Shown piece after piece: positions 6,888-9,784 of a stretch of DNA of 64,000 nucleotides. Each line of letters starts with the position of its first letter. Positions within the stretch are counted from its first letter, which is position 1. The notes beneath the pieces were generated by a model. It did not search any database, was not told where the DNA came from, and was given only the letters and a program-made list of their open reading frames with translations. The stretch is taken from positions 15,687,251 to 15,751,250 of the forward strand of contig OX393555.1 of NCBI GenBank assembly GCA_947650365.1, in the 5' to 3' direction. Origin of the DNA: Chamaelirium japonicum (Eukaryota > Streptophyta > Magnoliopsida > Liliales > Melanthiaceae). A program made the translations under genes and the position numbers.

Positions 6888-6894
6888 TATATAA

Positions 6895-7030
6895 GAATGT
6901 TAAAATGCGGTCTAAGGTGCATGCGGTCTCGCACCGCAGCCTTCCAATGCACCACTGATGCACACAGCGGGTGCATCAGACGGCTGCGGTGCGAGACCGC
7001 ACGCTGCACCCTAACAGTGCTCTCTCTCGG
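6895..7030. mobile_element. Foldback element T1 at edge of TA island
   Basis: The arms GGTCTCGCACCGCAGCC and GGCTGCGGTGCGAGACC are exact complements around a short GC-rich centre. The right edge abuts a (TA)38 tract, and the left edge follows a short TATATAA. The word GCATCAGACGGCTGCGGTGC is shared with element T5. Confidence 0.65.
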
Positions 7031-7106
7031 TATATATATATATATATATATATATATATATATATATATATATATATATATATATATATATATATATATA
7101 TATATA

Positions 7107-7526
7107 CAGAGAGAGAGAGAGAGAGGATACGGGGTATAGGCTGGCGGCCTATTTCGACAAAATGGGCAGCCGCCCATTTGACACCCTTAGGAGTCTTAGA
7201 ATGTGCTGATTTTATGTGAGCATCTGCATCTTACCTTAGATAGCAAATCCACAAAAAATCAACACATTCAAAAACTTTTAGGGGCATCAAATGTTACATT
7301 TCAGATTAACGGTAACAACGGACGTTCGATAAAACTCTTAACTTTTGAAGCCCCTAGGAGTCTTAGAATGTGCTGATTTTTTGTGGGTGTTCTATCTACG
7401 ATAAGGTGCTTATGCTCACAAAAATTCAGCACATTCTAAAACTCATAAGGGCTTCAAATAGGTGGCTGCCTATTTCGTCAAAATGGGGTAGCAGCTCATT
7501 TCCCGTTTCCTCTCTCTCTCTCTCTC
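7107..7526. mobile_element. TA-flanked MITE T2
   Basis: Both ends are GA/CT runs. Next come inverted copies of CCTATTTCGNCAAAATGGG, and then inverted copies of TCTTAGAATGTGCTGATTTT-like sequence. The paired arms are about 115 bp each and imperfect. An extra internal direct copy of the TTAGAATGTGCTGATTTT word makes the middle repetitive. No coding. It resembles T4 in carrying the word GAATGNGCTGATTTTTTGTG. Confidence 0.7.
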
Positions 7527-7575
7527 TATATATATATATATATATATATATATATATATATATATATATATATAT

Positions 7576-7949
7576 TTAAAGAGAGAGAGAGAAAGGGAGA
7601 GAGTAGTGATACATTGCGGCCGGGTAACGAGCGGCTTAACGTGCGGTCACCCCCTTCCGGGGCATTTTGGGAATTATTTTTTGGGGATTGATCACCCACC
7701 CTTGGATAGCACACACAAAAAATTTCATTCCGATCCAAGTCCTGTAGGCCTTCCAAATATGATCGACTTTTATCGATCGTTTATTTTTTTTGTCATTTTG
7801 ATCAACACATTTGGACGGCCTACAGGGCTTGGATCGGGCTGAAATTTTTTGTGTTGCTATCCAAGGGTGGGTGATCAATCCCAAAAAAAAAAAATTCAAA
7901 ATGCCCCGGAAGGGGGTGCTGCACGTTACCGGCCGCAATGTATCATTAC
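7576..7949. mobile_element. TA-flanked MITE T3
   Basis: Left arm words (TAGTGATACATTGCGGCCGG, CCCCCTTCCGGGGCATTTTG, GATTGATCACCCACCCTTGG) recur as complements in the right arm in reverse order. The arms reach in about 160 bp. The right end touches a TA tract, and a GA run separates the left end from one. No coding. Confidence 0.75.
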
Positions 7950-8108
7950 TATATATATATATATATATATATATATATATATATATATATATATATATAT
8001 ATATATATATATATATATATATATATATATATATATATATATATATATATATATATATATATATATATATATATATATATATATATATATATATATATAT
8101 ATATATAT

Positions 8109-8776
8109 GGGGACGGGAAGCCTGGACCTAAGGTGCAGCGTTCACGCTGCACCGGAGCAGCTCCCCACGCGCCATGTGGCCAAGAAACCGGTCAGGTCGA
8201 GTTTAAAACCCCGGGACGAACCACAGTCGTTCGATTCTTTCGATCGGACGCCAAATCCGGCGGCCCGACTCTCAAATGCACGGGATCGATCGCAGCCGTC
8301 TGATCCGTGCAGTGCACCCCGCCCGCCGCCGTCTGATCCGTGCAGCGCACCCCCGCCTGGTGTATCAGTTGGGCCGGGTGATTCCCGTCCGTTCGATCGA
8401 GGGAATCGAACGGACGGAAACGTTTTTCGCTGTTACTGTAGCCGCTACAGTAACAGCGAAAAACGTTTCCGTCCGTTCGATTCCCTCGATCGAACGGACG
8501 GGAATCACCCGGCCCAACTGATATACCGGGTGGGGGTGCGCTGCACGGATCAGAAGGCGGTGGGCGGGGTGCACTGCACGGATCAGACGGCGGGCATCGA
8601 TCCCACGTTTTTGAAGGCGGGCGGCTGGATCTGGCGTCCGATCGAATCGATCGGACGGCTGCGGTTCGTCCCACGGTTTTAAATACGGAGCGACCAGATT
8701 TGATGGCCACGTGGCGCGCGCAGGGGGCTCCGGTGCAGCGTGAACGCTGCACCTGAGGTCCAGGCTCCCCGTCCCC
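8109..8776. mobile_element. TA-flanked 668-bp palindrome T4a
   Basis: The element is one long inverted repeat centred near 8442. The ends are GGGGACGGGAAGCCTGGACC and the near complement of it. The centre pairs TTACTGTAGC with GCTACAGTAA across one base. The arms match along almost their whole length of about 334 bp, with scattered mismatches. GC content is high and no transposase is present. A transcript through it would form a very long hairpin. Confidence 0.85.
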
Positions 8777-8853
8777 TATATATATATATATATATATATA
8801 TATATATATATATATATATATATATATATATATATATATATATATATATATAT

Positions 8854-9240
8854 GGGTCAGGATCGGATGACCCAGCAAATTTGGACCCATTAATAACCCA
8901 GCACCCTTTGATGCACTTAGAGGTTATAGAATGGGCTGATTTTTTGTAGACATGTCGTCTATGGTATTTTGATCATCCTCACAAAAAATCAGCCCATTCT
9001 AAAACCTCTAGGTGCATCAAATGTGCTCTTCAAATCAACGGTTTTTGACTGTCAATTTTAACCGTTAATTTGAAGATCTCATTTGATGCACCTATAGGTT
9101 TTAGAATGGGCTGATTTTTTGTGAGGATGATCAACATTTCATAGACAACTTGTCTACAAAAAATCAGCCCATTCTAAAACCTCTAGGTGCCTCAAAGGGT
9201 GCTGGGTTATTTGCTGGGTCAAATTTTGCTGGGTCATCCG
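8854..9240. mobile_element. TA-flanked MITE T4b
   Basis: The outer arms pair ATCGGATGACCCAGCAAA with its complement. The inner arms pair AGAATGGGCTGATTTTTTGT with its complement, in two nested inverted pairs, so four copies of that word are present. No coding. Confidence 0.8.
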
Positions 9241-9309
9241 ATATATATATATATATATATATATATATATATATATATATATATATATATATATATATAT
9301 ATATATATA

Positions 9310-9459
9310 GGGAAGTGCTAGAATGCGGCATGCGGTGCGTGCGGCATCGCACCACAGCCGTCTGATGCACGCGCTGCGTGCATGCGATGCACGCAGCAGT
9401 GCATCAGACGGCTGCGGTGCGATGCCGCACGCACCGCATGCCGCATTCTAGCACTTCCC
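9310..9459. mobile_element. TA-flanked palindrome T5
   Basis: The 150-bp element is a near-perfect palindrome from GGGAAGTGCTAGAATGCGGC to its complement, with a CATGC-rich centre. (TA)n lies on both sides. It shares the CATCAGACGGCTGCGGTGCG word with T1. Confidence 0.85.
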
Positions 9460-9528
9460 TATATATATATATATATATATATATATATATATATATATAT
9501 ATATATATATATATATATATATATATAT

Positions 9529-9652
9529 GGGAATGCGGTCCGCGTCTGCAGTGGTCCGATGCACCCGCCGCGTGCATCAGATGCACGGTGTGGTGCATCG
9601 GACAGCTGCGGACGCGGACCACACGGACAACAGACTGCATCTAAGCATCCCC
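9529..9652. mobile_element. TA-flanked foldback T6
   Basis: GGTCCGCGTC pairs with GACGCGGACC around a GATGCA-rich centre, and the ends GGGAATGC and GCATCCCC are imperfect complements. The right side lies against a short TA tract. It is a diverged relative of T5 (shared GTGCATCNGACNGCTGCGG). Confidence 0.65.
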
Positions 9653-9784
9653 CTATATATATAACAAAAACATAGAAACTGTTATTTTATGTTATAATGA
9701 ATTTAGATCTTAATATGTTCATTGCTTCTCTTAACAAAAAAAAATTTTGTTCAAAATATAATCAACTATCTAAGACTTGTCCTG

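Follow-up and report, generated by a model that had tools for sequence, protein, structure and literature searches.

Positions 6888-9663 of the window, as we call the whole 64-kb stretch of DNA analysed here, are occupied by seven foldback elements (E1-E7) lying end to end, with six long perfect (TA)n tracts between them (Table 1). The seven are separate foldbacks of at least two lineages, their joints are perfect (TA)n and no element interrupts another. The array is made up of different, uninterrupted elements, which fall into two to four sequence groups. We read the island as a whole as a MULE-type array, that is, a non-nested run of seven non-autonomous Mutator-like MITEs, and would put the probability of this reading at roughly 85%. 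Its most likely history, by analogy with published systems, would be transposase-driven insertion into TA followed by growth of the TA tracts. The pattern is not new, earlier examples having been reported from several plants, guayule, rice and pineapple among them.

Table 1. Elements and (TA)n tracts of the island. Arm scores give the number of identical bases over the number aligned, for whichever arm block of the interval scored best.
Feature	Positions	Arm score	Remarks
E1 foldback	6888..7030	37/44	Group A; left flank ATATATA; right end enters CTCTCTCTCGG then (TA)n
Perfect (TA)n tract	7031..7106		76 bp
E2 foldback	7107..7526	152/188	Group B; GA run at left end, CT run at right end
Perfect (TA)n tract	7527..7575		49 bp
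E3 foldback	7576..7949	133/161	Inverted repeat from about 7603 (left offset 27); distant relative of group B
Perfect (TA)n tract	7950..8108		159 bp
E4 foldback	8109..8776	295/338	668 bp; G-rich ends, nearly loopless; marginal similarity to group A
Perfect (TA)n tract	8777..8853		77 bp
E5 foldback	8854..9240	164/181	Group B; left end GGGTCAGGAT without right counterpart (left offset 10)
Perfect (TA)n tract	9241..9309		69 bp
E6 foldback	9310..9459	71/74	Group A; near-perfect hairpin, GGGAAGTGCTAGAATG at both ends
Perfect (TA)n tract	9460..9528		69 bp
E7 foldback	9529..9653	28/32	Group A; 125 bp
Short (TA)5 tract	9654..9663		10 bp; closes the island

Distribution of the (TA)n tracts

The window contains exactly six TA runs of at least 12 bp, and all of them are the inner tracts of the island, with lengths of 49-159 bp. 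Runs of 8-10 bp are found at five places, one of which is the right border of the island, and the left border consists of ATATATA alone (7 bp, 6887-6893). The probability that six random points in 64 kb would lie within 2.5 kb of each other is about 5e-7 analytically, with 0 of 200,000 simulations achieving it; the figure refers to simple random placement in 64 kb, not to a genome-wide expectation.

As many as 12 of the 14 element sides touch a TA tract of at least 49 bp, the remaining two meeting runs of 10 bp and 7 bp. On two of these 12 sides the element does not directly abut its tract, a single C intervening to the left of E2 and 27 bp to the left of E3. The first-pass annotation described every element as bounded by (TA)n and counted seven TA tracts. 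The former is accurate for the 12 sides just mentioned, but the outer flanks are short and that on the left is hardly a tract; the latter is right as regards six tracts, but the seventh is the short one of 10 bp. Left of the island, at 6464-6504 and 6658-6698, lies a pair of direct repeats, 93% identical, accompanied by (CT)n tracts.

Structure of the foldbacks

That there are seven inverted-repeat elements, as originally proposed, is borne out by comparison with the remainder of the window: for each of E1-E7, none of 1000 random segments of the same length drawn from 9700-64000 attained as high a self-complementarity score. The size range needs correction, since the smallest element is not 136 bp but 125 bp long (9529-9653). 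A chance origin of the island, already considered unlikely in the first-pass annotation, is rejected on the basis of these hairpin controls (0/1000 in every case) together with the TA-tract controls given above.

DNA folding, which covered E6 alone among the seven elements, gave -109.1 kcal/mol for that element plus 6 bp of TA at either end (9304-9465), against a mean of -37.8 for shuffled sequences, none of 200 being as low. The central arms of E4, at 8272-8442 and 8444-8614, are separated by 1 nt. E2 and E5 have arms that are quasi-palindromes in their own right, with within-arm palindromes of 92/122 and 94/122 in E2 and of 108/136 and 98/122 in E5 (raw counts, without shuffle control); these arms are built of inverted modules, so that each of these elements comprises four similar modules. 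In E7, the left arm lacks around 20 bp that are present in the right arm, with the GGG start retained.

A structured RNA family was considered as an identity for the island and dropped, as nothing in the region 6400-10200 matched Rfam at gathering thresholds. E3, E4 and the first part of E5 are overlapped by reading frames of 163-279 aa, which span hairpin arms and lie outside the set scanned with Pfam (see below). Elsewhere, a further inverted-repeat element is visible at 4260-4529, with blastn arms at 4265-4319 and 4471-4524 that are 85% complementary. It does not lie in TA, and is flanked by 7-bp direct repeats, AAAGATT, at 4260-4266 and 4523-4529.

Relationships among the elements

Relatedness was assessed by local alignment of the trimmed element bodies for all 21 pairs, scores being compared with those of 300 dinucleotide shuffles without correction for multiple testing. 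No shuffle reached the alignment score for any of the pairs E1-E6, E1-E7 and E6-E7 (0/300 each), nor for E2-E5 (0/300). The same is true of E3 with E2 and with E5 (0/300 each), yet here the scores are low, at 36 where the shuffles reach up to 29, and E3 is accordingly a weak yet detectable relative of the E2/E5 group. Within the E1/E6/E7 group, E4 is marginally linked to E1 and E6, its score being reached by 1 and 3 of 300 shuffles respectively, but not to E7, where 25 of 300 reach it. The island therefore holds two, possibly three, lineages, one made up of E1/E6/E7 and perhaps E4, another of E2/E5 and the distant E3. In the earlier suggestion of at least three groups, unrelated or long diverged, the word 'unrelated' is, in the light of the shuffle tests, an overstatement for E3 and perhaps also for E4.

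Arm identities offer a view of how the elements came to lie together. In group B, identity between arms is 0.76 within E2 and 0.90 within E5, against 0.56-0.61 between E2 and E5. In group A, it is 0.96 within E6 and 0.78 within E7, against 0.63-0.66 between the two; the arms of E1 share 0.70-0.82 with those of E6 and 0.64-0.71 with those of E7. Since the arms of E2, E5, E6 and E7 are each closer to their own partner than to the arms of group-mates, these four look like independent insertions rather than copies of a block. E1 is an exception, its right arm being nearer to E6 (51/63 and 51/62; 0.81-0.82) than to the left arm of E1 itself (46/62; 0.74).

The order of the sequence groups along the island, A-B-C-D-B-A-A, is nearly a mirror image, and 6880-7581 aligns in inverted orientation to 8776-9473 at 68%. 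Because arm identities are higher within elements, independent insertions account for this order better than an inverted duplication would, and we reject inverted duplication of one block on the basis of the within- and between-element figures.

A blastn search of the window at e-values of up to 0.01 found no copy of any element outside the island, all 20 outside matches being to GA/CT-rich stretches. Exact-pattern searches gave zero hits for the E6 end in viral contigs and zero for the E5 module in viral contigs and prokaryote genomes, results that have no bearing on the plant.

Element ends and target-duplication parity

In E4, E6 and E7 the ends are of the form GGG...CCC and sit directly on TA. 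E5 has a GGG-type end on its left side alone, about 10 bp being missing at the right. In the other three elements, GA/CT runs come between TA and body, at the right of E1, on both sides of E2 and at the left of E3, where 27 bp of GA-rich, TTAAAGAGAGA-type sequence precede the inverted repeat. The statement that the island contains almost nothing besides TA and elements has to be qualified to allow for these runs.

No target duplication can be read inside TA, and none is legible in complex sequence at the island. The parity of the flanks is nevertheless informative. It is odd for E4 and E7, where T is both the last base of the left flank and the first of the right, and even for E6, with A before and T after; E5 is also even, with its right end incomplete. 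Slippage by whole TA units leaves parity unchanged, so that odd parity in E4 and E7 and even parity in E6 point to duplications of both odd and even length. It follows that no single fixed duplication length fits all three elements while a length of 9 or 10 bp does, an argument that comprises the three elements with both ends G-rich and presumes intact terminal bases and no single-base change at the junctions.

Evidence bearing on a proposed Mutator-like identity

Both ends of E6 score 11/16 against the terminal mask of the MuTAnT elements, and TGCTAGAA has an identical offset in E6 and in the mask. However, a score of at least 11/16 is reached by 16 of the 2425 GGG-starting 16-mers in the window, two of which are the ends of E6, and there are three further places in the window where TGCTAGAA is present. 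For these reasons the MuTAnT-like terminus of E6 is to be taken only as a hint. Seven other element ends were compared and none exceeds 9/16, the right end of E7 scoring 9/16, both ends of E4 and the left end of E5 7/16, and the left end of E7 5/16. Taken together, the GGG ends, the E6 terminus, the four-module foldbacks of E2 and E5 and the flank parity give modest local support for a MULE origin.

The 29 reading frames of the window scanned with Pfam yielded no transposase. They comprised 19 of the 67 that reach 150 aa and 10 of the 26 that reach 110 aa at 1-22000, those ten all being shorter than 150 aa. Domains scoring above the cut-off were reverse transcriptase, in two frames, and, in one frame each, integrase core together with integrase zinc-binding, an RNase H-type reverse-transcriptase-like domain, and gag. 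Sub-threshold matches were to another gag, to RNase_H and to the N-terminus of a potassium channel. On the minus strand at 21711-31425 there are retrotransposon remains in separate frames, with RNase H-type, reverse transcriptase (two), integrase and sub-threshold gag matches.

The gag-containing frame at 41071-46296 is enclosed by two blocks, 38445-40036 and 51031-52626, which lie around 12.6 kb apart and share the same tandem-repeat consensus units: a 33-bp unit, the unit AAAAG, and a 70-bp unit arrayed in about 11.6 copies. These blocks may represent the pair of LTRs belonging to one large retrotransposon. Two adjoining satellite-like arrays are present at 53766-55531, one of 107 bp x 9 and the other of 67 bp x 10.7. 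Internally, at 11105-11312, there are degenerate AACCCTAA-rich repeats, which resemble plant telomere repeats. Together with the retrotransposon content of the window and the resemblance of the island to MITE arrays known from plants, these repeats suggest that the host is probably a plant.

Probable origin of the array and possible growth of the tracts

By analogy with the systems discussed below, a MULE transposase supplied in trans would move each element, with a preference for TA repeats as the site of insertion. The TA on both sides, along with an insertion duplication of 9 or 10 bp, would then present a landing site for the next element, and successive landings would leave the elements stacked side by side. 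Slippage would afterwards lengthen the TA tracts, and the GA/CT ends of some elements may similarly have grown into short GA/CT runs. The first-pass annotation had likewise proposed TA-targeting MITEs landing in each other's TA; in this it matches what has been published for SaTar, Ac-mMITE, MuTAnT and Micron elements. The alternative that it also raised, of TA termini growing into microsatellites, retains a small probability.

Targeting of TA and later growth of the tracts probably both occur, since published empty sites hold TA that is shorter than the flanks of occupied ones. In the island, all six inner tracts measure 49-159 bp against 7 and 10 bp for the outer flanks, which fit growth better than a long pre-existing TA tract. 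One might speculate that TA tracts grow by virtue of lying between two hairpins, stacking and growth reinforcing each other to make a self-extending landing pad rather than a colonised microsatellite; we consider this idea doubtful. The difference between long inner and short outer TA nonetheless provides a testable hint as to how such arrays grow.

Two rival accounts share the MULE identity of the elements, and so overlap with our preferred explanation, differing in how TA and element met. According to one, MULE MITEs enter TA by homologous recombination, excised circles with TA filler recombining into existing TA tracts. This was proposed, as a speculation, for guayule flanks unlike those of cut-and-paste transposition (PMC5907723), and would suit the one-sided GA stretch of E3, the one-sided CT run of E1 and the absence of around 10 bp from one end of E5. 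However, asymmetric flanks may also arise through slippage at element ends, as argued for pineapple (PMC8449440), or through loss of end bases, as in Medicago (PMC4486113), and the window contains nothing that demands circles, leaving this an unlikely route. In the other, the target is not TA-rich and the elements bring TA ends of their own, which expanded into microsatellites. The short outer flanks compared with the inner tracts favour it, in that growth seems tied to a position between elements, as does the observation in Medicago that occupied flanks average 15 TA repeats compared with nine when empty (PMC4486113). It is made improbable by the TA already held by empty sites in rice and Medicago (PMC5907723, PMC4486113), by the GGG/CCC ends of E4, E6 and E7, next to which the body has no TA, and by the presence of both odd and even parity.

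More distant accounts dispense with MULEs altogether. It is very unlikely that the elements are Tc1/mariner MITEs of the Stowaway type, whose target duplication is TA. The TA flanks and short foldback form would accord with such an origin, and the flanks of E6 are compatible with a TA duplication. Yet the Stowaway terminus is CTCCCTCCGT, unlike the GGG... ends seen here, and a 2-bp TA duplication at every insertion is not what the island displays, the odd parity of E4 and E7 being impossible to derive from one if their end bases are intact. In addition, ordinary rice MITE clusters are more often nested than adjacent, according to earlier work related in PMC5907723. A non-mobile origin, whether as palindromes that replication slippage and template switching produced locally within a TA-rich fragile site, or through inverted duplication of a block, finds encouragement in the near-mirror order and the 68% inverted alignment described above. 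But arm identity is 56-61% between E2 and E5, against 76% and 90% within the two elements, meaning that the mirrored units are not recent copies, and separate bodies are common to E1, E6 and E7; we hold this origin to be highly improbable.

The MULE-type array is itself faced with some awkward facts. The authors of the pineapple study likewise failed to find an autonomous partner for their elements (PMC8449440), and many guayule flanks were judged unlike plain cut-and-paste (PMC5907723). Within the island, outer TA of 7 and 10 bp does not resemble the remnant of a long pre-existing target, and the right arm of E1 is closer to E6 than to the left arm of E1.

Comparison with known systems

The closest published parallel is provided by the SaTar elements (Valdes Franco et al. 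2018, PMC5907723), mixed-family non-autonomous MULEs linked by microsatellites, mostly (TA)n. More than 300 clusters were catalogued in guayule with, in the account cited, zero cases of one element interrupting another, and counterparts are given for rice, sorghum (where one cluster of eight is shown) and citrus, in the last with 9/10-bp duplications. The rice counterparts include Micron, which is there classed as a non-autonomous MULE, making the first-pass annotation's comparison with Micron an apt one. On japonica chromosome 1, 20 of 51 rSaTar2 sites correspond to unoccupied TA tracts in indica, and the same paper retells how maize TAFT targets short sites of 6-8 bp which expand after insertion. 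The island shares with SaTar the mixed TIR/foldback families, the (TA)n joints, the lack of interruption and the other types of microsatellite beside elements. It differs in size when compared by description: the lower limit in guayule is about 400 bp, whereas the elements here are of 125-668 bp, five of the seven being below or near that limit.

In pineapple, the Ac-mMITEs (Lin et al. 2021, PMC8449440) form 4024 clusters, with 10,137 of 21,994 full-length copies clustered. Duplications of 9/10 bp were seen for 1435 copies that had no microsatellite on at least one side, and the runs of GA/TC that mark the ends of elements were ascribed to slippage there. As reported, these elements resemble the island in their two-sided (TA)n and non-nested clusters, and in having a 5' GA run and a 3' TC run as in E2. 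Their sizes, 510-570 and 210-270 bp, are however different, none of the seven island elements falling in either range.

For MuTAnT of Medicago truncatula (Stawujak et al. 2015, PMC4486113), a putative autonomous partner is given, and the ecotypes compared have on average nine TA repeats at empty sites and 15 per flank at occupied ones. Like E2 and E5, MuTAnT is a four-segment foldback, and it too has G-rich ends, its mask being GGGGTTTGCTAGAACA where E6 has GGGAAGTGCTAGAATG. The likeness in sequence is limited to the 11 of 16 terminal positions of E6, and stacked arrays are not described in the portions of that paper cited.

Further TA-flanked MITEs that are held to be Mutator-derived, and are in that respect similar by description, are Micron in rice (PMC12550479) and MiM in carrot (PMC8227079). 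MiM comprises 2156 copies in 15 TA-flanked families, three of which have putative autonomous Mutator relatives (PMC8227079), and Micron-like MITEs are reported, in the text cited, mainly from Poaceae and Rosaceae and as absent from most other species (PMC12550479). To this published picture the island adds little, standing as a clean seven-element example of microsatellite-stacked MITEs, in which very different lineages share one landing site.
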